Shown here in pieces: positions 20,226-47,268 of a DNA stretch of 64,000 nt (within the stretch, counting starts at the first letter, position 1; each line of letters begins with the position of its first letter). Source of the DNA: Isoetes taiwanensis (taxonomy: Eukaryota > Streptophyta > Lycopodiopsida > Isoetales > Isoetaceae); assembly GCA_021234155.1 (NCBI GenBank), contig JAJEKV010000028.1, positions 16,124,469-16,188,468 on the forward strand, read 5' to 3'. The notes beneath the pieces are model-generated. The model did not search any database. It was not told where the DNA came from and worked only from the letters and a program-made list of their open reading frames with translations. A program made the translations under genes and the position numbers.

Positions 20226-20421
20226 ACCACTCAGAAGCCCGCCACATGCAAATTTTCTTGCTACTGCTATTTTTAATTCTTGCTACTGCTATTTGGAAGA
20301 CTTTTTTTTTTTGCCCTTTTCAGAGGACCTTAACGTCCTTGGCCTCTGCATTTAGCCGTAGGATTGAATCTCGGCCGTCGATCTTTAGATGTTATATCCA
20401 GTAGCATTCTGTCGCCAAATT

Positions 20422-20456
20422 TGTTATGACCATAACAGGATGTTATGTCCATAACA
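20422..20456. repeat. Doublet of 16-nt palindromes in copy A
   Basis: TGTTATGACCATAACA (20422-20437) and TGTTATGTCCATAACA (20441-20456) are two adjacent palindromes differing at one centre base. The same doublet is present in the inverted copy near 61864-61899. Confidence 0.9.
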
Positions 20457-20993
20457 TTTCCTCTGTTTTCACGTTTGGGCCTCCGCCATAGCTACGCAAA
20501 GAATCTGCCGCCATAGCCAGGCAAAGAATCTGCCGCCATAGCCAGGCTTCTAAGTGTTGATTTTCGTGTTTTGGAATTTCATTTTTGCAGGCCTAAGCTC
20601 GCTCCCGCCCCTCGCTCGCCGCATCACAAGCAAAAGGTCGAAAAATCTTTTGCTTCGCTTTTGTTTCAGATTTTTTCGGATGATTTCTAATCTTCGATGA
20701 TTTGGATGATTCCACGTAAAAGCTTAAGGAAATGGAGGTCGAAGCGGGAAAATGAAATACTGTGTCCAAACTTCTCGCGAAATGCCCCAAAATTGCCGAT
20801 TCTCGTGAATCCGACTCATTTATGCCTCCCCCATTAAAATCGACTCCTTACTCATTTTTGTCCCCTCCTGGCCTCACATGTTCTATTTAGAAAACATAGA
20901 CTTACATTTAGTTTGTTTTTCTTGCCGGAATGCGATCGGGTCGCCAAGCTTGGCTATGGCGTATGCCGCCAAATGCGTTAAAGGCGATAACAT

Positions 20994-21122
20994 CCTCCCC
21001 TCGGGAGTTATGGGCGGAAAAATGGCCTCGTGGCCATGTGGCCATGGTAGGTCGCGGGCGGCTAATTTCGTGGCCACATGGCCACTCAGCCATTTTTATG
21101 GCCCATAACTCCTCGGGAGAGG
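20994..21122. repeat. ~53-bp arm imperfect inverted repeat in copy A
   Basis: The left arm (about 20994-21046) reads CTCGGGAGTTATGGGC, then AAAAATGGC and GTGGCCATGTGGCCA. The right arm (about 21070-21122) is its near complement. The spacer is about 23 nt. Transcribed, it would form a long hairpin. The same arrangement is present in the second copy at about 61175-61313. Confidence 0.85.
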
Positions 21123-21139
21123 ACGTTATCTACCCCGTC

Positions 21140-22270
21140 TTATTTCTAAAAGTATCCAAATAAAAAATAAAGGTTCGTCACTTAAGCGAAAGAGGATGAA
21201 GTTGTTTTCAATAAAAAAATAAAACATGTCTCATTTTATTTTATACTTGGGGGACTTCCCCCGACATAAATAAGATACCATTTATTGACCAATTATATTC
21301 AAAATAATAAGTGATCTTATTTTGTGATGGTTTTCATACTAGTGTTTGTTAGTGTCTTATCAACCCTTTTAATTTGGGATTTTCCGATTTGGCTAAAAAG
21401 GTTTTTGGAATTTTTCTTAGTCACATTTCCTAAGATTTTGAAGTGTTTAGTCGCCGGAAAAAAGTTCCGATTATCTAAAAATCGAAAAAAAATAATAATT
21501 TATGGTTTTAGAGTTTCATTCCTTTTTTCAATTTAGGTTAGGTTCCTAGGGGAAAATAATTTTTGACTGTGGAGGCCCTAATTGTTCACCGTGGAGGCCC
21601 GGAACACAGACCAAGCCATGAACACAGAGCTTGCTAGCTCAATCGGCCCTACTTCCTCTTCTTGCGGCACGTCAACACCTTTGCCTGCCCTGGCCAAATT
21701 GGGATCCTCTACAAATTGATTACTTCCAGTATTCATGAGCCAGGTAAGGAAACGATTTTGTTTTCTTAACTCTGGTTCTATTCCTTACATTCCAGGACTG
21801 CACCAGCAGATGGGTCTGCCTATGTTCATTGTAGAATGATTTCTTTGATGTTCTTTCTACTCTAAGGTCAGAATCTGCTTGACGACGCCTTGGATTTTGC
21901 AGAAATTAAACAAGGAAGACTGTGGCTGAACTGGTCTTGCAAAGGAAATAGGCCATAATATGGCATAAGGTAAGAAAATATGGCATCGTTCGGTTTGGAG
22001 TTTGCAAAAGGGAAGCATGCTACCGATTTAATCATGCCTATGTTTTGATCTTTTATATGTTTATTTCTTGGATGAAGAGCGTCAGGACTAAAATGCAATC
22101 GAAGACTGTAGGCTTAGGAGATGTTTTTGTTTTCTCAATTCTGGTTTTTGCAGGCATCTGGTCACAGAAATAAAGGCCCTTTTGCAAAAACGATTTTAGT
22201 AAGAGGTTCATATGAAGATACGAGGTGCCTTTCCTTCTCAATGGCAAGGCTTAATGCATGGAAAGATCGT
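21140..22270. other. Gene-free stretch
   Basis: AT-rich sequence without recognisable genes. Open frames at 21.3-21.5 kb and 21.9-22.2 kb have no motif. Confidence 0.4.
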
Positions 22271-22398: not shown

Positions 22399-22442
22399 AC
22401 AAGCTTTTGATTGCTCATGTGCATGAGCAATCAAAAGCTTGT
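22399..22442. repeat. Perfect 44-nt inverted repeat with 2-nt loop
   Basis: Two 21-nt arms, beginning ACAAGCTTTTGATTGC and continuing to CTCATG, are perfectly complementary around a TG dinucleotide. The arm length equals a small-RNA length, but the loop is too short for a normal plant microRNA precursor. Confidence 0.95.
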
Positions 22443-24272: not shown

Positions 24273-24636
24273 ACGAACTGTCTCCCAAGAATCAACCCTT
24301 CAAGAAGGGGAAAGCCAAAGACAAAGAATCAGGTCAGTTTAAACTTTTTGCTGCTGTGCATTTGCAAGCTGATATTAAGTACTTGAGAAAACATGGAATT
24401 GTGAGTTCTGATTGATTTTGCAGCTTCTTTGATTTTCAGGGATCATAGCAAAAAGGAGTATGTATGCTTCAGCCATGTATGCAAACCTTTCACATTGTTT
24501 TTGCTCAATATTCTTGGGTAGAGGTTTTCATCTGCAACCTGAAGGGACTATACCACGCATGCCAATAATGAAAATCTCCATGCTTGCTTCTTAAAGATAA
24601 CTTTCTTCCATATCCGTCATCTGATTCAATAGCATG

Positions 24637-24662
24637 TAAGTCGTATTTAATTAAAGTGGGAC
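24637..24662. repeat. 26-nt motif identical (inverted) to 36430-36455
   Basis: TAAGTCGTATTTAATTAAAG followed by TGGGAC is an exact reverse complement of 36430-36455. A looser relative lies near 63536-63556 (ATTAAAATGGGACTCATTC). All three adjoin LINE-type sequence, so this is probably an untranslated end of one LINE family. Confidence 0.7.
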
Positions 24663-24784
24663 TCATTCCATTCCCATTTTTTTTCGGAACCCTGTTAATT
24701 TACATAAAAAGGAGCACCCCGACCCGAAAACTATCCTTAATTCGAATTTTTGTCTAAAACTCTGCATCCAAGCTTTGCTCCAGT

Positions 24785-25756
24785 TTTCTCTGGTTAGCGA
24801 GTCGAGAACAAGAACAATGCAACTGAAACAAAGGAAATTCATTAAAGATTGAAACCAAAGATCTAGTTGAAAGAGAATTTTTATTAATAAATTGAATAGG
24901 TACAATGTATTTTACATCGGACGCAGAGACCATGGCGGTCTTGCTGTCACTACAGTTACATCATCGTGGTAGGTGGTCCACCTTAGGGGATTAACTTGCG
25001 GCGCTTCTTCACGCCGACTGTAAGCCTTGGGGGCAACCTGAAGAGTGTGGAATGCCTCACGTGGAGGTGCCTCTGGAGCTACCGGCAGACCTGTCCACCC
25101 GACTGCTCCACTCGCCTCCCGCAGCCTTCCATCGAATATGCTCCTTCCCCAACCTCCGTGGATGTTATGCAATGCTTGCAAGATGCTTTGAGCTTCCTGG
25201 ACTTTCTCTTTGTTCTTCGCCTGTTCTTTATCCCCAGGGTGTAGCGAGCAACCTCTGAATTCGCGAGCAACCTTATCCCAAAGGCCGGGCAAGAGTGTAG
25301 CGTGACCGGATCCGTGCTGAAACGGTATTTCTTCCGCCTTTGAGCGGATCTCGTACCGCTGGGCGGTCTACGTGCCCGAGCGGGATCTCGCGGCCGGTGT
25401 CGGATCGTGCACGAACCACGGAGCAAGGAGAGTATTAACAATTACGGTGCCATTAGTCAAAACGAAGAAAAGAATGTTGAAATCAAATTACAATGGAGAA
25501 CATTCATTCCATACAACTGCATCCAATGACGTGGGAAGTAGTGTCTTTCTCGACTCGCGAGTCGAGAAAGGCCCATAAAAGTGAAAGTACAACCAGTGCC
25601 TTTCTCGACTCGCGAGTCGAGAAAGGCCCAGGAAATGCAACGTAGAAGCATTATCATAATAGATTGTGGCTGCATCCAGTCACACAATCAAACATACAAA
25701 TGGTCTCATCAACAGAACAAGCATGCCTTTCTCGACTCGTGAGTCGAGAAAGGCAT
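24785..25756. repeat. Palindrome family 1, cluster I
   Basis: Each copy is TTTCTCGACTCG followed by its own reverse complement. Copies: 25545-25570 (26 nt, perfect), 25598-25627 (30 nt, perfect, with GCC/GGC flanks) and 25723-25756 (34 nt; the centre reads CGTG instead of CGCG and the flanks pair out to ATGCC/GGCAT). A decayed copy with an intact right arm (GCGAGTCGAGAA) is at about 24785-24807. Spacers between the three good copies are about 27 and 95 nt. The copies read into overlapping frames as SRLASRE/DSRVEK in either direction, as expected from a palindrome. Confidence 0.95.
24905..25292 (-). other. Minus-strand open tract of unknown nature
   Basis: A frame open for about 126 codons from 25292 to 24912 on the minus strand is rich in Glu, Lys, Ala and Pro. 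It carries an acidic/basic patch (DKEQAKNKEKVQEAQ). It lies downstream, in transcription sense, of the FCP1-like relic. It may be the 3' part of that gene, another fragment, or chance in GC-rich DNA, since opposite-strand frames are open over the same bases. I recognise no family. Confidence 0.25.
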
Positions 25757-25889
25757 CGAAAACTCAATATACAAGTATATTCATTACAAAATGTTCAATA
25801 CATGTGTTCACGTTTGTTTACAATATTCACACAATTTGACTATCTGAAAGCAGAGGTCACTCTTCTTGTTCACCAAAATATTTGTCGTC

Positions 25890-26530
25890 CATAGCTTTCA
25901 TGATCGCCTTTGCTCTCTCGATCGGGTTCCGTGAGGGCTCGGATAGTTCCTAATCACATCGGGCGACAAGAATGGCAAAGAGGGATTCCGCCAAGACAGA
26001 CACAACCGAAGGACAACCACCTATCCGCCTCTCATATTCTTCAGTCGATATGGCTTAGCAATGATTGTATTTTGCGCGTTATGATAGCACTTGTAGGCGA
26101 GTCGCCTATGATCGGCCGTGTTGTGTTTGCCATAGTCCTGAATTGCTCATAAACCCCGGCCCAAATTTCTTTTCACCATTATAGGCTTCCCTTTGTGATG
26201 GCTGGATCGAGGTCCCACACATGCTCGACCCTTTCGCTTCCCCAAACGAACTTGAACTTCAAAACTGAAATGCCGAGAACACCAAGAACATTGACAATAT
26301 TTTTCTTTGCCATACAAGACCATATGCCCACTTCAATCCCCTTCGGGCACCATTCAACAATTTCCTTAGCTCTAGGCCTCGGATACACTATTTTATGCTC
26401 CGCTCGCCTGGGATCTGCGAGGTGTTAATCTCGGGGGCGCCTTTATCGTGGTATACCGCAGCTAATACTCCATTGACGCCAAATATTACAAGCTTGGCGG
26501 GACCAGCGGATCCCGCTTGGAGTTTGGCTC
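25890..26530 (-). pseudogene. FCP1-like (NLI-interacting factor type) phosphatase relic
   Basis: Three blocks of the HAD-superfamily FCP1 homology domain occur in the correct order on the minus strand, in different frames. Block 1 (about 26498-26440) is AKLVIFGVNGVLAAVYHDKG, where plant members usually have D-x-N-G in the catalytic loop. Here the first Asp codon is GGC (26480-26478), a Gly. Block 2 (about 26385-26297) is VYPRPRAKEIVEWC then EVGIWSCMAKKNI, matching the usual RP..EFL..C..FEVGIWSS...KN. Block 3 (about 26245-26075) is KFVWGSE, DLDPAITKG and IIGDSPTSAI, corresponding to the conserved LLIDDSPYKA. Such proteins dephosphorylate phospho-Ser/Thr. Loss of the nucleophile Asp, frame changes and a stop-rich tail argue against activity here. 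Some frame changes could be introns, but I could not place a consistent set. Confidence 0.55.
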
Positions 26531-26734
26531 GACCATATTTCCGTTCATCGGGATCCAAATGCGGGATCATTATCTTTTCGGTCCTTTCTCGGGCCGTGGA
26601 GCGGTGTCTTGCTCGATTGTCTTTGAGGAGTGCATTCTCCTCCTCGCGACGTGAACCGCCGGTATCCAATGACAATGATCCGAGTCGCTGACATGGAACT
26701 CCCCAAATGATATCCGCCGAAGGAACGATGAGTT

Positions 26735-26808
26735 TTCTCGACTCGCGAGTCGAGAATGAAAAGAAAAGGTATTGAAAGGAACGAGCTTTCGACTCGCGAG
26801 TCGAGAAA
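26735..26808. repeat. Palindrome family 1, cluster II
   Basis: Copies at 26735-26756 (22 nt, perfect) and 26787-26808 (left arm lacks CT, reading TTTCGACTCG, while the right arm is complete). They lie between the minus-strand tract ending near 26830 and the FCP1-like block 1. Confidence 0.95.
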
Positions 26809-26827
26809 CACCGATAGAGCAAAGTAA

Positions 26828-27222
26828 ACTCACCTCAATCTCGATTCTCAAGAATGTGTTCGGCAAAGATTCTTGTCTAAACCTTCGACATTCACGCCTA
26901 CGCCCCGCTTGGTCTCCCTCGTCCTCGCCGCCTTTATTTGCTTCCATTTGTCTTCCTCCCCTGAAATGCTCATGAAGCAGATCCGTATGACCGAATGGTT
27001 TCAACCATGTCCTTATTTCCAACCACGGATATAGGTTTCATTCCAAACAAAGATAGCCCCCGAGAGAACAGGCCATTCATGTACCACTCGCATATAATTT
27101 GATCTTCCTCGACCAAGTCGGGTTATGAAGTACTTGATAACTCTTGGCCGGATAGGAATTCTATGTATAGGACCCGCCGCACCATCTTTGCTGACCTTGT
27201 CCATCGATGGAACATCCTCCAT
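26828..27222 (-). pseudogene. Minus-strand coding tract upstream of FCP1-like block
   Basis: From 27222 a frame reads MEDVPSMDKVSKDG, then RPRVIKYFITRLGRGRSNYM, HEWPVLSGAIFVWNETYI. It shifts near 27013-27022 into a second frame reading EIRTWLKPFGHTDLLHEHF and then a basic/acidic Gly-rich stretch (GGEDEGDQAGRRRECRRF) to about 26830. The meeting of the two frames at YIRGWK/EIRTWLKP looks like a single frameshift in one original protein. It may be the N-terminal part of the FCP1-like gene that follows in the same direction. I do not recognise the domain. Confidence 0.35.
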
Positions 27223-27299
27223 AAATCTGCCCCCCTTCTAGGGTTCCATCTGCTCTTGAGAGCATGAACTGTCGAGATAATGATGCTCGCTAGACCACC

Positions 27300-28443
27300 A
27301 CTTATCCAGTCTCACGATCGATCTTGAAATCAAAACCAAAACTATGTTGGCAAAGCTTGGTGCCTTCGGCAAGCCAAGTCTACACTCATGATCAAGTTCG
27401 TATATGGAGTACATGATCTTGTTGGTGAAGTTAATATCAGCTGCCCATTGGGAGACAAAGTAGTTATGTCGATTGCCCTAAGATGCAAAAGACAAGGAAA
27501 CTGAAAGTATCAAGGTCGGTCATGTCCAGACACGTCTTGTACCACTGCTCTATGTCAGCTTTGTCATAAAAAAGGGTGGGGTCTTCGATCATATTGATGA
27601 CAAATAGTGCCACGGGTCCAGTGCCGGTTCCTGACCACCAAATCCCTTGTGTCCCAAAGTTACCGAAATGGGGGAGCTATCGTCGGCCTTAAATGGGACC
27701 ACCCCTCAATCCAAGCTTCCTCTTGAATTGCCATAGCACGCCGTTCGGGGAAAGGAAGGGTTTTGACGTGCAGCTTCAGCTTGGTGTTGATGTAGGGTTG
27801 ACATAGGCGGTTCAATTCCTTCATGTCTTCCTCATCAAGGGCAGCCTTTTCCTTGTAATAATCAAAATCATGGTATTCATTAGATGCAACGTTCTTGAGA
27901 ACTCCGTGATGCCTTCTTCTAATGACGCTGCCGCTTTAGGACTGTGGCATAATCCTTTAGCGCCCCGCATTTTAGAACTCCTAGTCTTCCTTAGCGGGAT
28001 TGTTCCATCCAAGATTACGCCTTTGCGGTCAAGCGTTTCTTTGTCCGGTGAGGCCCTCAGATCCTCTTCATGAACTGCTTGTCAAACAACTTGGGGTCCG
28101 GCCTGGATGGAAATTCTCCATTGATGTCCTTCAGCTTGCCTCTTGTCCATTGAGCCCATATCTCAGTCCATTTCTCCCAGACCACCTCAGTGCTAAGAAT
28201 GAGGTCATATTGGTCTGAGAGAGACTCCCTGCCTTTCCTTGGTGTTCTCTTCTTCTTCTCCTCTTCATCCTCTCCCTCATCATCTTCCTGGCCCTCCAGC
28301 AGAACATATCTGCATAGTTTCTCAAAGGTCTTCCACTTATCCGAGGGAGCCCTGTTTCCTTTAGGACGCTGAGGACAACCCAATGCTTTCCACTGTTGCC
28401 TAGCGTGTATGATCTGGTCAGGATAAGGGCTGCATTCAGTCAA
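27300..28443 (-). pseudogene. Unidentified decayed gene, minus strand
   Basis: A 128-codon frame starts at 28443 (MTECSPYPDQIIHARQQW) and includes WKTFEKLCRYVLLEG. It then has a highly acidic run followed by KKKRTPRKGRE, then VVWEKWTEIWAQWTRGKLK. Further along the same strand are YYKEKAALDEEDMKELNRLC, LKLHVKTLPFPERRAMAIQ and EEAWIEGWSHLRP (about 27860-27670). Next comes ADIEQWYKTCLDMTDLDTFS (about 27570-27480). These blocks are separated by stops and frame changes. Composition and Trp placement look protein-like, not random. The acidic-then-basic stretch resembles a nuclear linker. I do not recognise the family. It could be a host gene or a transposon protein. Confidence 0.4.
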
Positions 28444-28511
28444 TGTACCAATGTCAGAGCATGATAGTATCTACAAACACCCGAAATAAACAGTAAATAG
28501 TAGCCCCGGGG

Positions 28512-28716
28512 TTTCTCGACTCGCGAGTCGAGAAAGTCCCTTGAATGTCTAATTTTCTTTTACTTCTCTAGGTTTTCTCGACTCGCGAGTCGAGAAAGCT
28601 CTGCATCCTTTGATTTTCTGTGTTCCCCTGGCTTTCTCGACTCGCGAGTCGAGAAACCCCAGTGATAATCGGAAAATGTTAGGATGATAGGGCTTTCTCG
28701 ACTCACGAGTCGAGAA
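28512..28716. repeat. Palindrome family 1, cluster III (four copies)
   Basis: Copies at 28512-28535, 28574-28597 and 28633-28656 are perfect 24-nt palindromes. The copy at 28695-28716 has CACG at its centre and perfect arms. Spacing is regular, with starts about 59-62 nt apart. The sequence between copies is unrelated from one gap to the next, so this is not a conventional tandem array. Confidence 0.97.
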
Positions 28717-28739
28717 TGGAAAGAATCAGAGTTATTTAC

Positions 28740-29860
28740 CTTACGTAGCTGGCACTCGCTGCTATTGTGTTCTGGCAGTGGCTAATGCTGGCCAGTTCGG
28801 TTGCTGGCGTCTCCGCTGAAAGAACTCTGCACTCTAGCTTGGCATATCTATCCTTGATCCTTTGCGGCACCTCCTTCTCCGTCGCAATACTTGCGCCCTC
28901 CTCAGCGAATCTTGCCGTCCACTACCCGAGCGGGGACGTCTTTTCCCTTCGTCTTCCTCGGACTTCCGTGAACAACCGACCCGGTCGATCTGCTAAAAGG
29001 TATGACATCCGCGGGCATTGGATCTGCAACGGATGTCGCACCATCGTTCGAATCTCCAGCATGTGTGCCGGATTAAATTCCACGTGGTTGAACAAGGCGG
29101 CATCTCCTGCAAACCTTCACCGCCTAATGTCCAAAGAAATTTTGTGTGATATTCCCAACGGATATCTTGAGCCAGGTAGCTCCATTTTCTCGTGCCCCTC
29201 TCGTGAAATCTGATCTGATCATCCGGATCAATTATTGGGGACTTCGACCATATCTTCATCTCCTTCATCATCTGATTCCTCCCGTGTGGTGTCATCTTCT
29301 CCATCTTTGGTCTTTGGCGGACTTTTTTCTGTATGAACCACAACTTCATTCCCCACTGCAGAGTGTTGTAGAGTCTTCAGCAGTAGAAGTGAAGCTCCCC
29401 GTATTGAACAGTTTTTCCCTGACTCTGGAAATCTCCATTCCAAGCTCCCTGGATGTTAGGGTTCCGCCTCCTTCATCCCTTCCATCTTTCCACCCAAGGT
29501 TCTCGACAATTTAAAGGCGCTTTGCCTTTTTTCTCTCGTTATTTCGCCTTGCTCATGGAAGAGTGAGAATAATTTGAAACTGATAATTTTTTGGTGTGAT
29601 AGAACTTACTCTTCTGGCAGTCCTCGACATGTAGTGTTAAATGCTTCGAATCTGGCGCTGAGACGGAGAGCACAACACCGATTTTCTTGTACTTGTCTCC
29701 GGAGCTCTTCTTGTCTCTTTGGTGGAGAAACAGATCTTTCTCCTTCCCACTTGTTGATACCTCGACATACCACCAAGAATCTGGCGGTGTGTCAAGAAGC
29801 TCGTCTCCGGTCCCTCGATGACCGAAGAACGGAGTTCGCCCCGGATCACTAGTGAGTCCG
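28740..29860 (-). other. Minus-strand open tracts, unidentified
   Basis: Frames at 29849-29637 and 29349-28993 on the minus strand are open and rich in Arg, Trp and Lys. Frames on the plus strand are open too (28767-29213, 29146-29514), so neither strand stands out. The tract is GC-rich compared with its flanks. I recognise no motif. It may be the upstream part of the decayed gene at 27.3-28.4 kb. Confidence 0.2.
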
Positions 29861-30930
29861 CGGTGAATGTTGCAAGAAGAAAGGATGGATCGGGTTAAGG
29901 TATTCCGACAAAAAGATAAACCTCGAGCTCACACGGGGTGTTTGTCTTCTTCTTCTTGGTGCCGCTAGAACTAGCATCCCCTCCGGCCTGCTTCTTGGAC
30001 CCGAGTCGCCATGTCAGATGCCCCTCATCCTCTTCCCCGATCGGACCCCACAAAAATTAAGTTTCCTCCAGCATTGTGAGTTTTAGGACTGCATGTAAAA
30101 AAGATCGGGCGTGTTCTTTAGTTTGAATTTAAGGACATGCAATCATTTATGAAAAAAAGCGGGCTAAAAGGTACAAAGACGGTTAAGCCTTTAACCCGCC
30201 CAAACACTATTTCAAATTTAATCACATCAAGGGACTTAGTGAGTGGAGCGTAGTTTATCTTGATCTGCGGCATTGGCGACCTTGAGTTCGGAGGACATTA
30301 GCATTGATCGACTTTACTTCTGGAATGGCGCCGCGACGCGGTAAGTCGCTAACAAATGCTTTGCATATGTGTGTTTTTCCGACCGCTGGCCCCTATTGCA
30401 AGCGATTGATTTGATCGATGAGCACGAGCTAAGGTAGGAAGCGGAGAGGAGCCGCCGCATTAACGGGAACTCTACATGCTTCTGCGCCATGGAACGGGGG
30501 ATACGCGAGAATCGCAGCGGGACACAAGTATTAGATCTTAATACACTCTTGATGAGACCGGCCGGAGGAAGAAGCAAAGACTCTAGGTGAGGCTCATGGG
30601 ATCCGTGATACAAAGGCCCAAGGAATTACCGCGTGAAGAGGTGAGTTTCGAGAGATGCCTATGTTATTTCGCTTGTAGAACATGCCGCCCGTGTTTAAAT
30701 AATGGAACTATTTACGATAAGCTCGACCAGATTCATCGTTTCCTTGTCCAACATTTTTCAGCTTCGAGAGATGATTTACTCTCTGGGTTGAGAGATGCTC
30801 GGCGATGAAACAATGGATCGGGGGTAAAGAACAGTTCCGTTTTAGGTGTATTTTTTCTTGGACTGTTTTCTTGGAATGTTGTACATAGATCAGGCTAGGT
30901 CTAAGGCTCAGGAGATGCGGTTCAAATGCA
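29861..30930. other. Gene-free stretch
   Basis: No gene supported. Short open frames at 30.3-30.8 kb on both strands show no motif. Confidence 0.4.
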
Positions 30931-30941
30931 TCCTCTTGTAG

Positions 30942-31760
30942 TTAGTCGGAGGGGCCTCCACCTAGTTGGAACCACTCCTCTTCGCAATATTCGAGGAAGA
31001 TGGTTCAAGGAGAGTGGCTCGCATGTGCTAGAGGCACTTGGGACTAAAAAAAACAGAGAACAGTAAGTGCAAGAGTTGTAGAGAATGCAAGCCTTGGTCG
31101 TAAGGGGATTCTCGACAGGAGAATTGGCTGCAAGGGATTCTCGACTTGCGAGTCGAGAATGCTTGGCTTCCTGTCTACATGCTTGGCTGGCTAGAGGATT
31201 CTCGACTAGCGAGTCGAGAATGCGACTGTTGGCTTCGTGTCTACATTCTCGACTCGCAAGTCGAGAATGCCTTAGCCATCGAGAACTCCGGATGGTACAC
31301 ATGGAGTGCCGGTTGGGTAAGGCATTCCCGACTCGCGAGCCGAGAATGCATACAAAGAAGCTCGGTGGTTTCCCTGTGGTTAGTTGTAGAGGCCTCCACC
31401 CAATCAGAGCCCATCCCCTTCGCAATATTCGACGAAGATGGTTCGAAGGAGACGGTCTTTGATTGGGTAGAGGCCACTGCGACCACACACAGGAGAATTG
31501 GGTTGCTAAGAGTTGGCCTCCGGGACAAATCAAAACCACTTCCCTCGCAATGTCCGAGGAAGATAGAAGGAGAGTGGTTAAGATCGCCCGGCAGCCAGCT
31601 CTAGAGTGCACTAGAGCTGCGTTTTCGACTCACGAAGTCGAAAGCCGGCATTAGTCGCCGAGGCCTCCATCCGGTCGGAGCCGCCCCTCTCGCAATATTC
31701 CGATGAGCATGGTTCAAGGAGAGTGACTCGAGGCGGGTGGAGGCACCTCGCGACCGCACA
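30942..31760 (+). repeat. Four diverged ~90-bp repeats
   Basis: A unit containing GAGGCCTCCACCC, then CCTTCGCAATATTCGAGGAA and GATGGTTCAAGGAGAGTGGC occurs at about 30950-31030, 31385-31465, 31508-31585 (more diverged) and 31660-31745. The units alternate with the palindrome-rich stretches. Open frames on both strands come from these repeats and do not represent genes. Confidence 0.85.
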
Positions 31761-32008
31761 AAGGGCCATTGACAGTAGAGGATATTCTCCTCACGAAGTC
31801 GAGAAGGCTGCGGCGAGCTTAAAAAGAATGTGAAGACATTGGGTAGTCGTGTGCAATCCCGAATCACGAAGTCGAGAATCCCTCAACGGCCAACAGTCCG
31901 TAGTGTACACTCCCTCTTCTCCCATGAAGTCGAGAAGTTCTCGACTCGCGAAGAAATGAAGAAGGCCTGTACTTCCCGGATCGCTGGCAAGTCAAGTATT
32001 CTCAACTC
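31106..32008. repeat. Palindrome family 1, cluster IV (variant and decayed copies)
   Basis: ATTCTCGACT-type copies lie at 31137-31160 (centre TGCG), 31198-31221 (centre AGCG) and 31245-31268 (centre CGCA). The 10-nt arms are perfect in all three. The copy at 31324-31347 has one T-to-C change in each arm. A partial copy is near 31109. Further right are decayed forms sharing CACGAAGTCGA: 31622-31643, 31784-31806 and 31857-31879. More broken pieces lie at 31912-31955 and 31996-32008. The shared CACGAAGTCGA variant shows that the right-hand copies were duplicated after mutating. Confidence 0.9.
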
Positions 32009-32059
32009 GCCACTCCTACGCAGAGGATATCTTTGTGAGTTAGAAATGCAGATTCTGTG

Positions 32060-32990
32060 AAGCAATTTCTATTCTTAGTTCTTACTGGGAGAAAAACATT
32101 CCTAGTTATGTTCTCATTATGAAACATTCTTAGACGGTTTAGCTATATCTTTAGTGAATCTCTTACATTAATGCTCGCAATATCTTACTTCCTAACACCT
32201 GCCTCTCGATGAGTGACATCTCGGTTGCTTGTCGCTACTCTAACCATTATTCTCACTTTTGCCTGTACAATGTATTCAATTCAACCACAAGCAAGAAAAA
32301 GATAACAAAAACAGAAAACAATACAAAAGGAAAACAGATAACAGAGAGGTTAGTGAGATTAATGAGAAAACAGAGAACAGTGGAGACAAATGAGATTAAT
32401 GAGAAAACAGAGAACAGTACAGAGAAATGAGATTAAAAAAGGGTATGATATTACAAAAACATACCTGGATTTGCTGGATGAGGAGGAGGCTTCCGTGTTC
32501 GATTCCATGTGGGTATAGTCGTTCGCAAAGCGTGAATAAGGATTTGTCGGGTCAAAATTGTATCGTGGATTAATAAGAGCCTCTAACAACAGAATATAAG
32601 TAAAAATGCACTAAAGGACTTCTGAAAAACTAAAAAGCAAAGACTAAAAAGGGCCTTACTTTCTTTCTCGCGATGCAGAACGCTCGAACACTCAATCTAA
32701 AGAGAACTTCGGCGCTGGAAGCGTCCTGATCCGTCGACCACGCTACTGTCATAAGATGGCCTTGGAATGGCTCGGTTCGATCGATCGCCTGATCGGAAAA
32801 GCGGGCGCTTAAGGAAAATACAGAGCTCGAAGAGTGATCAGAGAAAACAGGGGAGGAAGAATGGTCGGGGGGGAGAGGAAGAGGGTGCAAGCACTACGGC
32901 CGCACCCTCGAACCTCGTAAAAAAAAGTGCAATAATAAACTTACATCACGTGTGGGCCATGCCCTCCATGACCGTGGCGGTCTTGAAGTT
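32060..32990. other. Gene-free stretch
   Basis: Contains a short A-rich direct repeat (TGAGATTAATGAGAAAACAG at about 32352 and again near 32390) and no supported gene. Confidence 0.5.
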
Positions 32991-32996
32991 CTTGAC

Positions 32997-33043
32997 ATGG
33001 CCACGCTTTCAGCCTCTGAGGAGGCGCCACGTGGCCATGACAA
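32997..33043. repeat. Short hairpin
   Basis: CATGGCCACG and CGTGGCCATG form the outer arms, with CAGCCTC and GAGGCG near the centre. The outer words resemble the GTGGCCATG words in the inverted repeat of the element at 21.0 kb, so this may be a tiny relic of that family. Confidence 0.6.
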
Positions 33044-33054
33044 GATATGAAAGG

Positions 33055-33300
33055 TTAGGTTATATGTTTATATATGTTACCTTATATATTTAATATGGTT
33101 TCAATGGTTGAATAGTTTCAATGGTTATATATGGTTACAATGTTTACATATGGTTTAGAATGAGTATGGTTGTATGGTTTAATATGGTTACATGATTTTA
33201 GTTAATATGGTTGTATGATTTAATATGGTTATATTTAATATGTTTGTATGGTTTTATATGGTTCATATGGTCATATTTGTGGTGTTTGGGGCTATATGGT
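33055..33300 (+). repeat. TATGGTT-rich minisatellite-like tract
   Basis: Irregular repetition of ATATGGTT, TATGGTTA and TTTAATATGG words for about 245 bases, with no strict period. Confidence 0.85.
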
Positions 33301-33714
33301 TTTAATGTGAGCTTTTTCATTCAGGGAGCATGTGACATGAGTAAAATGGAGCCAAGGAAGTCCAAACAGAGGCCATTGCCCTAGGCTCCAATGGAGGAAG
33401 AAGGGTTGCCTTTTGTTGCACCCTTGCAACCGTATCCGGTATTTGCAGAGGGCATAATAACCTGCTTGATCCATTTGATAGTGTGAATGATGAGAGGCTG
33501 GGAGATGAACATCTTGGAGTTGGCATTGTGAAGCTTCTTATCGAAGTTGATACAATCATGTCCCGTGGAAGCTCTAGTGATTGCATTGTGTGCTCGTGGG
33601 CTGCTTTGGAGTCCCAAGCTCGATTTGAGATGGCCAATTAGATATATTACACACAAGAATGGTGATACTCTAGAATGCCCCTCTTGAACTACACACCCCA
33701 AGGCCCACCCAAGG

Positions 33715-36258
33715 CCATGTGGAAGATTTGGTGGTCGATGAGCATCCTTTGATCACAAGGAAGAGACGCTATGTCTTTCATAAAAGGCAGCCAAGGGTGC
33801 CCAAGAGGCCTAGAAGTGACAAATATTTAGAAAGGATGGAAAGTATGGCACCAACCGGAGAAAACCCGGAGGCAATTAGGGGACAAGTGTGTTGCAACCT
33901 AGATTGCACAAGGCAAAGACAATGTGGATGACCTCGTGCGGATAAGGTCCCAAAGACATTGGACAACTTCAAAAGATAGGATTAATTTCATTTACTCCTT
34001 GTGTAGGAATTCCAAATATGATGAAAACACAGGACGGCTACTATATCAATTGAGGGGCATGAAGGTATGTATGAGAGCATTGAGATGGATTCTTGGGGTG
34101 AGCAAGTCTTCATTTTACGATCTTTGGGAGCAGGTTAGAAAAAGGGCACGCTTTGTTCCAACATGGTAATGCACTCACTTTGAAACCTAGAGCAAATACT
34201 CTCAAGGCCATTGCAGTCTTCGAGCTTTGTGAGATACATGTCTCAATCTATGCCCCACAAGTCGAAGGTGAACGAAAGCACGGTGTGCGAGTGGTGCAAA
34301 AGAGTGTTGCCACAACACTATATCCAAAAGGAGTGCCTTAAGGAGGTCAACTCCATCCTCGAAACTACCGGAGGTAGGCCTCTTTCTCAATCACATTTCA
34401 GCAAGTTATGGAGCACTCACTTCTCGACGTGAGTGTCCTACAACACATGCCATTCTCAAAGTGCAACACTTGCATTCAACTCAAGGATACACTTGCATCA
34501 ACTGCAATAGAGAAAGAAAGAATGGCAATTAGGGAGCAATTTGCGTGATCACCAAAGGGACCAAATATCATGTAGACAGGTTGTATTGGCGGTGGAGAAC
34601 ATTTTTCCGAGATGCAGGCCGGACAAATTTTTGTGTATAATTCATGATAAGATGGACCAACACAAGACTTTCTTGCCAAAGCTAGATCCTTTACCCAAGC
34701 GTTGTCAAAACGCTTTTTGGATGAAAGTAAGTCCGGGTGGGTGTATTAACACATGGTCATGGAACTGGAACATATGGTCATTTTGTGCTTGATCTATGGG
34801 GAGATGATCCAAACTTCCATGTGAGCTCTATTTTCAAGTGCATGAGAACACTAGAGAAAGGATCGATAGAAGGGAGGAGGTATTCCCCTTCAAAGACCCA
34901 TTTTGAGGCTTTGATGGATGATTGAACCGCTTTGTTACCAAAGGCGGATAAAAAAAAGCTCACATCCAAGGTGTCTAGTGAATCAAGGAGGACTTGGGAT
35001 GATTTCCCCTTACTTGAGAAATCACCACCGAGGAGCTATGTGTTGATTGGACAACCTGTTGGAAAGAAAACAAGAATAGATGGATGTTTGGGGCTATGTC
35101 ATACTTGACAGAAGGGGAGTATTCAAAGTTGTGAAAGTGGGATTCATGATGGTTGGGCATACGCATGATGATATAGATGGATTCTTTGGAACTCTCTCCA
35201 CCAAGCTCAAGAGAGAAAACGTGACCACTCTCCCTGAACTAATGGATGTGTTTGAGAGCTGCATTGACCCCAACCCAATGGCTTTCTTGATGGATGAGGT
35301 TGCAGATTGGAAATCATTTGTAGAAGGATACTTGCTAGATGGTAAGGACCAGTTGACAGGACACACAAAGCCACTTCAGTTCAAGTTTTGGGTTAGGGAT
35401 GGAATACCAATCATGCAATATAAGTGGAGACCAGGTGACAAGTTGTGGATGCCTGTACAAGGTATCGAGTTGTGGCAAAGGGGTGCTGCTGGTGAAGTTC
35501 TCATTCCTAAAGGGCAGCCAAAACCACTACCTCCCTTCAAGACAGTCAAAGACTCTAGCCAACTGGTGAAGGGCATCAAGGATTACATAACGCACTGGGA
35601 TGATGTTCGAAATGGAAAGCACACCTCCACTCTTAAGAAAAATCAAATGGACTCCCTAATCAAGTACTGGGAGAAAGTTGTGACATGCTTAGAAACTGAA
35701 CAGCCATGTGGGAGGGAGCTAAGAGACGGGTTCTTGCCAGAGTCAAGATGGGAGGGTTCTCAAGGTGCAAGCACGTCTAAGAATGCTCACTTGGGTCCCA
35801 ACAAGGGTTCCAAGTGGTTTGTGGGAAGTAAGGCCTCAAAGCCGAAGTGGTTTGATCTTCCCCCGAGTGGGATCCCTTTGAGGACATCAAGGAAGGATAC
35901 TTTGTGCTAGTAAGGCCCGATGATGAGGACTTGTCCAATATGGTTAGGGGTGGCACTCTCTGATGTAACCACCACTATGCCTGATGGAGAGGAGTTGCGT
36001 CCTGGATTCCAAATTCAATATTGGGAGCCCATTGGGAGACACAAGAAGGGCAACTTGAAGGAGCAATACACTGACTGCTGGAAGAAGAAGTGGAGGGCAA
36101 ATTATGCTGACCCTCAAAGGAGGGAATTGGTGGAGTGTGTGGTATGGTCATATCCAAGTTCTCACGTTGCAAAGGACAACACACACAAGATCCCAAGAAG
36201 GGAGATGGACAAGGCCATGAGCAACCTCCATGCTATATCATTGTATGAGGGTACATAA
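33715..36258 (+). mobile_element. DUF7869-type transposon relic
   Basis: Successive plus-strand frames encode one protein broken by several frameshifts. The N-terminal part has CCNLDC near 33893, followed by RINFIYSLCRN, YQLRGMKVCMRA and LGVSKSSFYDLW (about 33940-34130). Next come MPHKSKVNES and a QSHFSKLWSTHFS block (to about 34430). Then FSKCNTC, a HDKMDQHKTFLPKL block (about 34640-34690) and GVLTHGHGTGTYGHFVLDLW. The core is WKENKNRWMFGAMSYLTE running, across a frameshift at about 35080-35110, into VKVGFMMVGHTHDDIDGFFG (HTHDDID at 35158-35178). This order matches DUF7869 proteins, presumed DDE-type transposases. The longest open part is 276 codons (35080-35910). The C-terminal part needs shifts near 35865 and 35940 to read FVLVRPDDEDLS, then WLGVALSD and IQYWEPIG. 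No terminal repeats were found. Confidence 0.75.
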
Positions 36259-36429
36259 TATTGAGAAGTTTGAAAACTTTCTCAACTAGTGGTTTGTAAA
36301 ATTTATGAGGAAAACAAGTAACCCAATTCTATGTGTGTCATTTGTAATTCTATTCAAGCAATCAATTCAGAAATTTCTTTTATGGTGTGTGAGTCCCATT
36401 TTCAGTCCGAGTCCCAAAATTCAAGATTT

Positions 36430-36455
36430 GTCCCACTTTAATTAAATACGACTTA
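36430..36455. repeat. 26-nt motif identical (inverted) to 24637-24662
   Basis: This is an exact reverse complement of the motif near the LINE fragment at 24.6 kb. Here it sits between the DUF7869 relic and the LINE that starts near 37.0 kb. In both places it lies on the 5' side of a LINE and in the same orientation relative to it. Confidence 0.7.
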
Positions 36456-37019
36456 TGTTTATTCATTCTTCTCTATGTTTAGTGGTAACTCTTGACATCT
36501 TTGTTTATTAGATTCAAACGAAGATAACCATTATAATCTAGAGATTAAGCTATTACTTTAGCAAGGTATAATCATGCTTTTTCATTGTTGGCTCTCATTA
36601 TAATTACTTGACTTTTGGTTCCAGAATGCTTACAAACTAGATCAGGCTGTTGCGTAACCTAGAAGGTGTTAAAATATTTGTTTTTTTGTGTCCTGATTCA
36701 CATATAAATATACTAGACTCTTTTTTGCATTTCATGCAGCAGAAATGGCACCTCCAAACCCAAGCTCTAGGGTTGCTACTCTGAAGTGGACATCATTTAT
36801 CAGTAAGTTGCGCCACCCACCTTCTCTCCTGTTCCTTTGACCAATTTTCAAATAGATATAGCTGCCTATAATGCTACTATTCAATTTGTACAGATTGTTG
36901 AGCCCTTGATCCATTTTAGGCAGACATCAAAGACTGCACTTTCAGTTTTATCACCTCAAAAACGTTGCCCACTAAAATGTATTTGCTGCATACTTCAAAA
37001 ATATCTTTGTTTTGCAGGT

Positions 37020-41731: not shown

Positions 41732-44648
41732 TCAGGCACCTTCAGCGACCTTGCGAAATATACCTTTAGGAGCATCATAAAGCCACCTGCATATTGAAAC
41801 AAACTAATACTAATGCCATCTGTACTTCTCTCAACCAGCTTATATTGATATAAATAAACTTGTGAAGGTACCTGCAAATGTAGATGGGATGGAGATCTGT
41901 GATCTTCGACCCACTCTTTTGTAGCTTCACTCGTCTCTCCTTCTCCGTATAATATCTTTGAGGTGTTAGTACATGGCAAGGACCTTGGATGGAACCCACT
42001 AAATTGCTATCGGAATGATTTGACTCATAAACCTGGAAATTTATTTATCAGGTCAACAGCATATGCAGAAAAGGACAGTTAACCCTTCAAACTAGCATCT
42101 AAACTGTTTTTTTAATACATTAACCTGTTTTATATTTTTAGATCATAGACATCACCTCATCAGGTTCAGGTTGTGCAGGACGACCAGCCACTGATGGCAT
42201 ATCATTAGGATAATAGCACCAGTTCACTTTCACCCATTTTGCTCCTGTATCAACATCCTCCCATAGAACCTATAACACCCATAGACATCAATGTAAATAT
42301 TCATGGAGAGAACTAAGCAAATCAATAATATAAATAAAGAATAAGAAGACAGATTGCACTAAATAAAATAATAGCCAAATTATACTAGAAACCAAAACGA
42401 AAACTATATTGGTGATGGCCAAATTACAACAGAATTGTCATAATACACAGCAGTATCTCAAACTTATAATAAGCAAACATAATATAAGCCATGCCATTCG
42501 TATATTCTCTAACATGGCAAGCATGCTAACAAGTTGAAAAGGTTTATACAGGTGCAAAAAAGGTAAACCTTGACAGAACACATATGAAAGTCTTATTAAT
42601 AACCTCTACCTTAATCAACCTGATCTCATCTACATCCATAAATTTATACCTATAATTTGCAATATTTGCTACCAACACCCGTTTCAATGAGCTCTCTAAT
42701 GTAAATTGGGAACTAGCAAAATTTAAGCGCGAGTCCCATGTAGGAATGCAACTTGGAAATGAAATGCAGACATTGCATACCTTGCCGAGCACCCCTTGTA
42801 GAATGGAATTGAGAACCCAATAACGAACAAAGATTTTTGAACTTAAGTACACCACAGAAACAGAGGAACATAACAGTAAACGAACAATGGCCAACTTATA
42901 CCTGCAGTCTTGCAATATATGGAGGTATTTCAGGAGATTCTGGACGAAATAATGCACAATCATGCAGCTTATATGTATGCTCTCCAACATGACAGGAGCC
43001 ATAGTATGCCTTTCCATCTATAACTTGCAAGGCATCCCCAACCCACTTAACAGAGACAGGTGGCTGTCCCATATCATCCGGTTGATTTGTACCAGGCCCT
43101 TGTGGTTCATCCGTATAAACTAAGTTCTGCCCTGTCATGTTGTTGCCTATCTGAACTAGCCCCACGTTTGCACCAGATATCGCTTGAGCAAGCAGGCCTT
43201 CTGCAGACGGCATCAAAATTGGGGTGGTCATAACTCCCTGGTGCAAACCTTCTCTGCCAGAATCTTCCAATGCTCCATTACAATTTGCGTGACTACTGCC
43301 ATTTTCATTAAAATATGAGGCTTTTGATTCTTCTCCTTTACGAGCTGCGTCTAATGCATACTGACCAACCTCTGGTTGAGGAACAAATACTTCTACATGA
43401 TCTGGGACACTAGAAGGTGGTGCATCTCTGCTGCACACTTGACTTACAACCTGGCTTTCAACTGGAATGACTGCAGCAGGAGCGAGCAGTAATGAACCAT
43501 TAGATATAACATGATTCTGAGATATACCGGCATCATCTTCCACACCATGACCATCTGCTGGCCGGTTTTTGCTTGTAAAAATGCGCGAAGATCCTTTAAT
43601 GGGCCTGTATACAGGTGGTGGTTGCTGCCCCTTATTTTCCATCGCACACTTTGGACAAAACCAGTCATCTTTGGGAACACCTTTCAAATACAATGGCTGA
43701 ATGCATTTCACATGGGAAACCTTCTCACATCCATCACAAACAATAGCGGACCCTGTATCCTTTATAATAGTTTTGCATATCATACAAGGAAGTGGGGTGT
43801 TCATATATGACCTGTTAAGACTATTGGGTTCTATTGCAACTGAAGACGGAATAAGTTTTCTAATAAGTTTGACCAATTGCATATGTGTAAAGGATGATGC
43901 CTGCAAATCATTAGGGTCGTGTTCCATATTCATTCCCTCAAATTCAAGCAATCCATATGGTACGGCGCTTGAAACGTCATGAATAAGGTCAACATGTTCT
44001 TGTCCATTAGCAATGTGTGGATTCTCAGGTACTTCAGCATGCAAAGGTGATTTAACATCCTCTTCAGTAGTGACATCTGCATATAGAGACATATAAATCA
44101 CTAGCTTGAGCTGCTAAGAAATGAAATTTCTTCAAAACAATGGCGGCTAGAACTAACCTGCTAAAGTGGAAGCCAAAGTTGGGATCTCCTTTTCCTCAGG
44201 AAATGGCTCCTTAAGCTGAAAAATAAAAACCAGAAATTGAAGCTAATAAGCTTAAATCTTGGTTCCACATTTTCTAACAGTAAAACTGCAAGAACAAGTT
44301 GCAAATGTAACAGACCTCTTGGTCTCCATCAATCTGCGCAGAGTTAGCTAATGCTTCTCGCCTCTCAATTGCTCTTCTAAACCCCATATCAGAAATCAAC
44401 TTCTCTATCGATTCCTTCGACACCAAGCTTTTTGGGGACAGCCTCGAGATAAGACGAGCCAAATTACCCTGTGCTTGGAGCATAAGATCCATCTCCACAG
44501 GAGTGGGCAACCGACCACCTCGCATTTGCCCTAAACCTGCTAACACCAAAACAATCTCTGCCGTGGTTCCAAGAATACCATCTATCTTTCTCTTCTTCGC
44601 CAAATCATTACTTTCTTCGCCATTACTTTCCCTCTTAACGGCTGCCAT
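41732..44648 (-). CDS. PHD finger plus BAH domain chromatin protein
   Basis: Six minus-strand exons join in frame: 44648-44316, 44215-44158, 44076-42902, 42269-42156, 42032-41872 and 41786-41732 (stop at 41734-41732). All introns are GT-AG and the total is 631 codons. The N-terminus (residues 1-110) has a basic KKRK patch and a conserved-looking helical block (GGRLPTPVEMDLMLQAQGNL). Residues 228-274 are a complete C4HC3 PHD finger (C228, C231, C244, C247, H252, C255, C271, C274). Residues about 480-610 are a BAH domain (YKLHDCALFRPESPEIPPYI, then KWVKVNWCYYPNDM and YESNHSD). PHD fingers read histone H3 tails and BAH domains bind nucleosomes or modified histones, so a nuclear chromatin-reader role follows from family knowledge. 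It resembles plant PHD proteins annotated in the Arabidopsis At1g50620/At3g20280 group, but I am not certain of that link. The start was chosen as the first ATG of a frame open into the conserved block. This is the only intact gene in the window. Confidence 0.9.
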
Positions 44649-45187
44649 GGCAACTGAGCCTCTTCAGTCCAAAGAAGCGGAAAAACGCAGAGCAGTCAAA
44701 ATGAAATCTACCATTGAACTATTTGTTATTCCATTCGGATCAAATACGTGACAGATTCAGGGGCGAGGAAGATGGAACCGTGGAGGAAAAAGGGCAGAAA
44801 GATATTGGGCTTGTTTTGGGTTGCCGGAAAGGGCTAAGGTCGACGGAGATGGAAGCATTTAGAGCTATGGCGAACGAGAAAGGACTTCAAGGATGTGGGA
44901 TTTCAAAACGGAGATGCAAAGGCTTACTGCAGCGGCACTCTACTAGCCTTCACAAAAGAATAGCTGATAATGGAATTTCGTTTTCTCCGGCCAAAAAAAC
45001 ATAACTCCTTTTGTGATTGTTGAAAAAAGGGAAAAAAGCTTTAGTTGGAAACAAATTGGTGTATACCCGTATATCTATACTATACGATTTTGAGATGTAT
45101 AAATGTACTTTTGCTTGGTTTCTAGGTCAACCATAGTGGTGCAAAAGCTGCATGGTTGGATTTATGTTCTAGATGCAAAAGTCAGTG

Positions 45188-46300: not shown

Positions 46301-46301
46301 T

Positions 46302-47268
46302 GAAATTTGCTTAAGCGAATTTGTGAAATTCGCTTAAGCGAATTTCACAAGGGAATATTCTTTAAAGATCCAAGTTTTATGAAATTCGCTTAAGCGAATT
46401 TCAGAAGACGTCGCCGAAAAATTTTGTCAGGGTCTTGTCTAATTCCGTCAGAGCACGCCTGCATAGGTGGTTTTAAAAAAAAAACTGAAATTCGCTTAAG
46501 CGAATTTCAACCCAAAGTTTGTCCGTAGTTTGTCCACTGTATGGGGACATCTGGGTGCATCACAGTACCAATAAGTGGCCAGACTATGTATGCCACGAGC
46601 TGTTTGGGGGCCCAGACGCCTGACAGTCAGCCATATACCTCAATACTCCCTACGTGGCTTTCATAATCAGCGCCTAGACTAGCCTACCAACCATACTAGT
46701 ACAAAGGAAAAACCCTAATGACAACAATGCAAGTTATCTAATGGGGTCTGAGGGTACTTACCAGAAAGTGATGTATCCAATCAATCCCGGCTGTCCGCGG
46801 TCGACGTAATCCGGGAGCTCACTCTCATCCATCCCTATCGGGCGACTCTCCTGCCTAAGATCTCTGCCCCATCGGTCACCTGTCGCCATGTTGTAATGCC
46901 TGCACATTATGTATCGGGTCAGCAAAACATCGCTAACCAGAGTTACAACCGTTTGAACAGAAAATGGAAACATCATGCACCTGGTGATGCTACAAGGGTG
47001 GAAGGTGCTGAAGAAACGTGGAAGAACTGAAATTCGTTTGTAAGCAGGAAAGAACTTGAATTCGCTTACGCTGACTTGTGATAAGCGAATTTCCCTGGTC
47101 AAATCGAGCCCGTGCGCGCCAGGCCGCGTGTCGCCGCTCGCATGCGATCCGTGACGCCTCGGTCCACGCGTCGGTCCACTCGTGACGCCTCGGTCCGTGC
47201 CGGCAACAGTTTTCCGGCATGAAATTCGCTTAAGCGATTTTCAATGCCAAATTCGCTTATGCGAATTC
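46302..47268. repeat. Palindrome family 2 (seven sites)
   Basis: The core is GAAATTCGCTT followed by its reverse complement (22 nt). Copies: 46302-46323 (two mismatches), 46321-46350 (30 nt, perfect, extended to TTGTGAAATTCGCTT arms), 46380-46403 (24 nt, perfect), 46486-46509 (24 nt, perfect), 47058-47093 (two half-sites separated by ~13 nt), 47220-47243 (one mismatch) and 47249-47268 (centre TTAT). Intervening sequences are unrelated. The family is confined to about 1 kb and is unrelated in sequence to family 1. Confidence 0.95.

Follow-up and report, generated by a model that had tools for sequence, protein, structure and literature searches.

VANDAL elements of Arabidopsis are Mutator-like transposons. 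En/Spm (CACTA) elements carry many short sites of approximately 12 bp for the transposon protein TNPA near their ends, and Sola1 elements are characterized by a 4-bp target duplication. As described in sections of two papers (PMC5735166, PMC10398659), the targets of VANC proteins are short, family-specific motifs found in tandem repeats within introns and between genes; the motif of VANC21 is the 9-bp YAGTATTAY, arrayed in one orientation (section of PMC5735166). These sections also name VANDAL, Spm, and MuDR, all from flowering plants, as transposons that counter silencing (PMC10398659, PMC5735166), and TnpA activation of Spm is described as correlating with demethylation (section of PMC10398659). 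Sola1 is listed from Physcomitrella in a section of PMC9033089.

This study analyzed a family of short palindromes in a 64-kb stretch of the Isoetes taiwanensis genome (hereafter, the window). The results revealed that the palindromes are part of a DNA transposon and share its dispersal, and that a core of approximately 24 nt is kept with sharp borders while the spacers vary. Judging from the sequences, we consider the palindromes to be transposon-internal cis-acting motifs, putative binding sites for a dimer of a transposon-encoded protein with a VANC-like role, and assign this reading a probability of approximately 0.55. The features of the locus are as follows.

24634-24637: left 4-bp target-site duplication (TSD), ATGT
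24638-36454: whole DNA transposon, 11.8 kb, delimited by terminal inverted repeats and TSD, with all 13 palindromes inside
24638-24662, plus strand: left terminal inverted repeat AAGTCGTATTTAATTAAAGTGGGAC, perfect over 25 bp
24785-24808, plus strand: subterminal site lying approximately 150 bp inside the left end; one palindrome half is conserved (half-site 24796-24808)
24912-25367, minus strand: short left-end ORF, with relatives of at least 150 aa in the copies L027, L029, L030, L031, and L034
25546-25569, 25601-25624, and 25728-25751: palindromes 1-3, flanked by the left ORF and the NIF-like gene
25857-26687, minus strand: inferred last exon of an NIF/FCP1-like phosphatase gene, frame broken in the window copy
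26734-26808: palindromes 4-5, inside the inferred intron 26688-26833
28512-28717: palindromes 6-9, inside the inferred intron 28471-28744
31137-31347: palindromes 10-13, mostly of the ATTCTCGACT variant, between two oppositely oriented genes
31622-32011: decayed palindrome copies
35080-35910, plus strand: DUF7869 protein, taken as transposase (PF25273, E=8.8e-24)
36430-36454, minus strand: right terminal inverted repeat, perfect over 25 bp
36455-36458: right 4-bp TSD, ATGT

The 24-mer TTTCTCGACTCGCGAGTCGAGAAA had 12 matches with up to three mismatches in the 64 kb, compared with 0.00 expected from 100 shuffles. Allowing up to four mismatches yielded 13 non-overlapping sites at 25546-31347, and six of the 13 were perfect palindromes over at least 22 nt. 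A first-pass annotation had reported at least 13 copies, six of them perfect, with decayed copies nearby; these counts were confirmed, and decayed copies are present at 24796-24808 and 31622-32011. Among the 10 perfect palindromes of at least 16 nt in the window, seven belonged to the TTTCTCGACTCGCGAGTCGAGAAA family and six of these seven reached at least 22 nt; 20 Markov shuffles produced 29 palindromes in total, all of 16-18 nt. By inferred gene models, on which the non-coding status of the sites depends, exons contained none of the 13 sites, introns contained six, and seven lay outside introns. The subterminal sequence GCGAGTCGAGAA was exact in 11 and changed in six of 17 aligned left ends. 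At its default score, Tandem Repeats Finder reported no palindrome arrays in the window, and a tRNA search of the window found none.

The terminal inverted repeats and the fixed-length 4-bp TSD place the element among TIR DNA transposons. In 12 of 20 fetched 10-kb loci, the alignment to the window started at 24637 or 24638, and across the genome the terminal repeat occurred, with up to three mismatches, 1,887 times on one strand and 1,931 times on the other. Among the four two-ended elements, whose TSDs were judged by eye (that of the window was confirmed separately), the TSD was perfect in the window, L017, and L018 and matched at three of four bases in L019. Counted from hits of at least 40 nt, the latter three have approximately 170-240 bp of the left end and 65-110 bp of the right end in common with the window element, and L019 additionally shares palindrome stretches with it. 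All three have palindromes amid tandem repeats, and arrays are likewise present in short copies that lack the gene-bearing interior; L017 and L018 contain no ORF of at least 150 aa, and L019 contains three. The element resembles En/Spm in its many short sites, which serve the protein TNPA there, but its sites are mostly internal and its ends read AAGTCG rather than CACTA. The 4-bp target duplication recalls Sola, a likeness to the general description of Sola1 that is a lead only. Bacterial REP sequences are likewise dispersed palindromes of 20-40 bp linked to a transposase; they may be mobilized as separate units, whereas the palindromes described here ride inside a large transposon.

The motif was found at 9,725 genome places within three mismatches (reversed control, 0), and the label "locus-confined" in the first-pass annotation must therefore be dropped. 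All 13 window sites being inside 24638-36454, they are pieces of one longer transposon, the outcome that annotation had named as speaking against its own view. Of 50 listed perfect palindromes, 28 were located inward of a perfect terminal repeat and at most 12.8 kb from it, and such stretches constitute approximately 3% of the genome by arithmetic from the repeat counts. Another 14 were in fetched loci with an element end carrying two to five mismatches or a 1-nt deletion. Thus 42 of the 50 were assigned to one transposon family, and eight were not placed in an element. Two more palindrome families in the Isoetes taiwanensis genome suggest a wider habit.

Related copies carry degenerate tandem repeats in which the palindromes are the part that is conserved. 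The downstream region of L034 and L030 has units of 127-128 bp, the second inferred intron has units of approximately 60 bp, short elements have units of 58-68 bp, and L022 and others have units of 48-49 bp; the number of units varies between copies, and the spacers are repeated together with the palindromes. Sites 1 to 2 span 55 bp in the window copy and 127 in L034, and the periodicity is hidden in the window because approximately 72 bp are missing there. The earlier statement that the family is not a tandem satellite was thus half right: the related copies do show degenerate tandem repeats. When five sites were compared across 10 other copies, 44 of the 50 cells were occupied at the same position, three were shortened, and three were non-homologous; no cell showed a clean gain of a single site. 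Single copies present or absent at otherwise identical sites, the pattern expected of the self-spreading palindromic micro-element suggested in the first-pass annotation, were not seen in these 50 cells. That the palindrome inserts on its own is extremely improbable: the motif has thousands of genomic copies and eight of the 50 listed perfect ones were not placed in the transposon, but the other 42 are within one family and spacers duplicate along with the sites.

To avoid the inflation of a first information profile, for which sites had been picked by core match, we used an 11-nt half as the anchor. Across 155 anchors, with perfect sites entered on both strands, the 12 nt of the half not serving as anchor carried 1.12-1.64 bits and were within one mismatch in 119; the base adjoining the anchor on the right, still part of the core, carried 1.11 bits, and positions outside the palindrome at most 0.66 bits. 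At the first intron site, L021, L024, L027, and L030 are within one to three mismatches, and their 15-nt flanks are only 20-40% identical to the window. At five orthologous sites in nine related copies, mean identity was 0.823 for palindromes versus 0.808 for neighboring non-coding sequence; the palindrome surpassed its flanks at both intron sites and at the third downstream site and fell below them at the other two downstream sites, clearly so at the second. The orthologous palindromes thus being no better overall than their neighbors, the constraint is visible mainly across arrays and subfamilies. Changes in the core were one-sided in 173 and two-sided in 17 of 190 changed pair cells, which favors sequence recognition over pairing. 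Among the three guesses of the first-pass annotation, putative binding sites for a dimeric protein are the best supported; hairpins in intron RNA are possible, but core changes are mostly one-sided and only six of 13 sites lie in inferred introns.

The same symmetry bears on two further explanations. Palindromes in the same transcript might pair into 24-28-bp duplexes in intron or untranslated RNA and serve small-RNA production or processing. In the fold of the minus-strand RNA of the intron stretch 28480-28745 (266 nt), which has -118.5 kcal/mol (z = -9.8), palindromes form duplexes with one another, but such a fold is expected from any array of perfect palindromes. The 17 two-sided changes exceed the 11.0 expected under independence, and 15 of them preserve pairing; a neutral symmetrizing process would also produce this excess and kept symmetry. 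Two-sided changes being so few, seven of the 13 sites lying outside inferred introns, and arrays occurring in L017 and L018 despite their lack of ORFs of at least 150 aa, a role in RNA is rather unlikely. Alternatively, the arrays could be functionless minisatellites inside the transposon, their symmetry kept by hairpin template switching and unequal exchange. Consistent with this, orthologous sites decay approximately as fast as their surroundings, unit number varies, symmetry is mostly kept where changes are two-sided, one site in L016 is reduced to 7 of 24 nt between intact flanks, and a palindrome in L004 (part of L021) has flanks that likewise form an inverted pair. Nevertheless, one 24-nt word is kept across arrays whose spacers are little related and whose unit lengths differ, where flanks fell to 20-40% identity, and in two element size classes, and we regard the absence of function as doubtful.

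The letters themselves could also mislead. The Isoetes taiwanensis assembly is a nanopore assembly (section of PMC8566536), and methylated CAG/CTG may have been read as CG-rich words, in which case the true palindrome may differ. CAG/CTG is scarcer where CpG is high (r = -0.42, 500-bp bins), and CpG-rich bins remain short of it with the palindromes masked (log2 -0.42); 26-27 kb holds 11 CAG/CTG versus 54 CGA/TCG, two palindromes included in the 54, and, in another repeat, two copies show identical runs alternating with scrambled patches. Because the identical 24-mer recurs exactly in 41 of 114 sites across many contexts, we rejected the idea that the palindromes themselves arose as assembly artefacts; a palindrome would moreover survive symmetric misreading, and a different true word is very unlikely.

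Turning to the genes of the element, we read the DUF7869 protein as its putative transposase. Ten ORF pieces of the window gave only sub-threshold Pfam matches, including NIF at E=0.16, and the assignment was settled because open relatives in fetched copies matched Pfam (PF03031, E=1.2e-10 in L021); this gene is on the strand opposite to the DUF7869 gene. The short left-end ORF of the window copy had no Pfam match above the cut-off, which only DUF7869 and NIF passed among the element pieces tested, and Pfam recognized no DNA-binding domain in these pieces. Sequence searches of PDB chains returned no match for the DUF7869 protein or the L021 NIF-like ORF, searches of viral contigs no confirmed relative of the DUF7869 protein, and the papers searched no mention of DUF7869. 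An NIF/FCP1-like phosphatase gene within a DNA transposon is unusual in itself, and no such case was described in the titles and abstract openings of three papers returned by a search.

The element is best read, by analogy, as having an arrangement of sites similar to that of VANC-target motifs in Arabidopsis VANDALs. In the accounts of VANDALs cited above, as in this element, one DNA-transposon family bears arrays of its motif in introns and between genes, tandem repeats turn over from copy to copy, the motif differs by family, and extra genes accompany the transposase. Family-specific arrays in regions non-coding by inferred gene models were found here; a Mutator-like transposase and a VANC-type protein were not, Pfam on the tested pieces giving DUF7869 and NIF only. 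The element differs from VANDALs in these two genes and in its lycophyte host. The VANC21 motif is 9 bp long and the string "palindrom" is absent from the main text of PMC5735166, whereas the motifs here are 24-nt palindromes.

Under the preferred reading of dimer-binding sites, the palindromes would be kept as degenerate tandem arrays in the non-coding parts of the family, and each would bind a dimer of an element-encoded protein, the candidates being the DUF7869 protein, the NIF/FCP1-like protein, and the product of the small ORF. A high density of sites would label the element and its short derivatives for this protein, which would most likely shield the expression of the element from host silencing or regulate the element, as VANC does on VANDAL, or might be used directly in transposition. 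Expansion and contraction of tandem units would gain and lose sites. A bolder proposal, which we regard as improbable, is a novel VANC-like anti-silencing system independent of VANDALs, in which palindromic tags and the NIF/FCP1 phosphatase keep a lycophyte transposon transcribed and the 24-26-nt palindromes of other transposons are their own tags. If true, a transposon-encoded phosphatase of the RNA-polymerase-CTD type would be recruited to tags. If each transposon family of this seed-free plant indeed has its own array of a long perfect palindrome, Isoetes would provide a second setting for the joint change of transposons and their address motifs.

Searching the window with the family-1 palindrome, TTTCTCGACTCGCGAGTCGAGAAA, identified 12 matches with at most 3 mismatches at 25546-31268, compared with an expectation of 0.00 in shuffled sequence (n = 100), and 13 non-overlapping sites when up to 4 mismatches were allowed. 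The 64 kb contained 10 perfect palindromes of at least 16 nt, seven of them from family 1; the other three, at 46.3 kb, formed a second family. By comparison, 20 Markov shuffles of the window yielded 29 palindromes of 16-18 nt and none longer than 18 nt. The palindromes thus exist as the first-pass annotation claimed. Its description of them as confined to this locus was contradicted, because TTTCTCGACTCGCGAGTCGAGAAA occurred with at most 3 mismatches at 9,725 places in the genome (1,658,258,908 bases, 1,110 contigs; the window is G000:C1032:16124469-16188468), whereas the reversed control occurred at none.

We fetched 20 loci of 10 kb around perfect palindromes from 50 listed, a sample of perfect matches on low-numbered contigs. 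Among the matches listed, window alignments in 12 of the 20 loci started at 24637 or 24638, the left end of the DNA transposon (family-1 element) that encloses all 13 sites.

Features of the window (coordinates, strand where assigned, description)
20328-21140 and 61147-61992: two oppositely oriented copies of a repeat unrelated to the palindromes (86.6% identity)
24634-24637 and 36455-36458: 4-bp duplication ATGT flanking the family-1 element
24638-24662: left terminal inverted repeat AAGTCGTATTTAATTAAAGTGGGAC, with an inverted identical partner at the right end
25857-29900 (approximate), minus: NIF-like gene, running leftwards to the stop at 25857-25859
26833 (donor GTGAGT) to 26688 (end of acceptor AG), minus: first inferred intron
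28744 (donor GTAAGG) to 28471 (end of acceptor AG), minus: second inferred intron
35080-35910, plus: 276-aa ORF, DUF7869 match (E = 8.8e-24)
36430-36454: right terminal inverted repeat, AAGTCGTATTTAATTAAAGTGGGAC inverted, identical
46301-46509 and 47220-47270: clustered copies of the second palindrome, TGAAATTCGCTTAAGCGAATTTCA

By eye, 4-bp duplications also flanked the two-ended elements in L017 (AATG) and L018 (ACAG), and three of the four bases agreed in L019. With at most 3 mismatches, AAGTCGTATTTAATTAAAGTGGGAC occurred 1,887 times on one strand of the genome and 1,931 times on the other. Among 79 of 100 listed perfect AAGTCGTATTTAATTAAAGTGGGAC places (up to C114), there were 28 adjacent opposed pairs; 10 were 3.5-4.6 kb apart, nine 11.0-12.7 kb, and the other nine 5.8 kb or at least 14.6 kb. 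The terminal repeat (26-mer, at most 5 mismatches) was found in 17 of the 20 fetched loci and was absent from L032, L033, and L035; L035 nonetheless aligned with the element from its first bases, its repeat carrying a 1-nt deletion, and L033 aligned with the interior. Among the 50 listed perfect palindromes, 28 lay no more than 12.8 kb inward of a perfect terminal repeat, and another 14 were in fetched loci where the element end had decayed (L020, L022, L024, L026, L030, and L035). Eight had no element placement (two in L032, one in L033, and five in loci outside the fetched set).

The DUF7869 ORF is read as the putative transposase of the element. The last exon of the NIF-like gene had a broken frame in the window copy, and its relative in L021 comprised a 253-aa open frame matching NIF (NLI interacting factor-like phosphatase; E = 1.2e-10). 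A phosphatase gene of NIF/FCP1-like type is here the cargo of a DNA transposon. Close to the left end lay another short ORF, with related ORFs in five copies. With splice sites inferred from sequence signals, none of the 13 window palindromes fell inside inferred exons. Three occupied the interval separating the left ORF from the end of the NIF-like gene; the first inferred intron held two and the second held four; the other four, accompanied by decayed ones, lay between the two oppositely oriented genes. This last cluster is crossed by two frames lacking stops (235 and 166 aa), which we provisionally do not count as genes. Among 17 aligned left ends, 11 carried an exact copy of the half-site GCGAGTCGAGAA, approximately 150 bp from the end. 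Between the right-cluster palindromes, a longer repeat, itself partly inverted, was present in three degenerate copies (30937-31771).

The arrays varied between copies. Downstream sites followed a 127-128-bp period in L034 (919, 1046, and 1173) and L030 (909, 1037, and 1164; element coordinates); in the window, the first two were 55 bp apart, part of the spacer being missing. L028, L029, L031, and L035 had more second-intron units than the window, and 60 neighboring spacings below 400 bp included 29 of 46-68 bp and 15 of 110-128 bp. The proposal that the palindrome spreads by itself was not borne out by related copies: no single-site insertion was seen when 5 sites were compared in 10 other copies. 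Of the resulting 50 cells, 44 were filled by 21-28 aligned bases, some decayed, the remainder being shortened (3) or non-homologous (3). Site 2 of L016 retained 7 of 24 nt between intact flanks.

Across 113 distinct sites selected by core match (at most 6 mismatches), 23 of the 24 core positions held 1.13-1.85 bits of information, compared with no more than 0.56 for positions beyond the core; the core values are inflated by that selection. We then anchored only the right half, CGAGTCGAGAA (155 anchors, both strands, perfect sites counted twice). The non-anchored left half held 1.12-1.64 bits, being exact at 90 anchors and one mismatch away at 29 more; the left flank held at most 0.66 bits, and to the right, values fell from 1.11 at the last core base to 0.76 at its neighbor and at most 0.53 farther out. 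Across nine copies, orthologous sites were overall no better conserved than non-coding surroundings (mean identity 0.823 versus 0.808). Relative to their own flanks, sites 1 and 2 were less conserved (site 2 clearly), and site 3 and the two intron sites more so. There is thus no clear protection of individual dead copies. Constraint is visible across arrays and subfamilies: the first intron site kept its palindrome in four copies despite 20-40% flank identity. In hits of at least 40 nt, what L017-L019 had in common with the window element was limited to the outer ends, plus palindrome stretches in L019.

Other palindromes were also found. TGAAATTCGCTTAAGCGAATTTCA occurred at 637 genome places (at most 3 mismatches); its sole further fetched copy, L036, was enclosed by inverted ends reading GGGTGCTTTCCC, which by eye differ from family-1 ends. 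A third family, CAAAGTGTATTCCGGAATACACTTTG, flanked a family-1 element on both sides in L018 (625-819 and 6753-6895, mostly every 42-43 bp) and occurred singly in L022 (4170-4195). The window also carries a 44-nt hairpin-like palindrome (22399-22442; two perfect 21-nt arms, 2-nt center) and a minus-strand host-like gene (42896-44663), whose ORF 44274-44663 matches DUF7797 and whose adjacent ORF by eye resembles a PHD-finger protein.

The Isoetes taiwanensis assembly (1.66 Gb, 204 scaffolds and 909 contigs) is described in PMC8566536 as nanopore reads with Illumina polishing. CpG-rich window parts tended to be CAG/CTG-poor and CGA/TCG-rich, the CpG part following from bin choice, and scrambled patches interrupted identical runs between 20328-21140 and 61147-61992. 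The patches and the CAG/CTG scarcity look like nanopore consensus error at methylated sites. Such error could account for the frame breaks and may have changed some letters of the motif; it does not explain the existence of the arrays.

We favor the palindromes as putative recognition sites for a dimeric protein, with action through pairing as a serious rival. The intron RNA fold was strong (z = -9.8), as that of any palindrome array must be. Core changes were one-sided in 173 cases and two-sided in 17, against 11.0 two-sided under independence, and 15 of the 17 kept symmetry; this mild excess favors pairing or symmetrizing processes. The closest described system is VANC/VANDAL of Arabidopsis. 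According to PMC5735166 and PMC10398659, ChIP-seq and gel shifts showed that the anti-silencing protein VANC21 occupies a motif of 9 bases, located in introns and in intergenic and terminal non-coding regions; its motifs form fast-changing tandem repeats, and VANC6 has others. Because the proteins found in the family-1 element are DUF7869 and NIF, the element is not a VANC/VANDAL member; the likeness is in the layout of its motif arrays.
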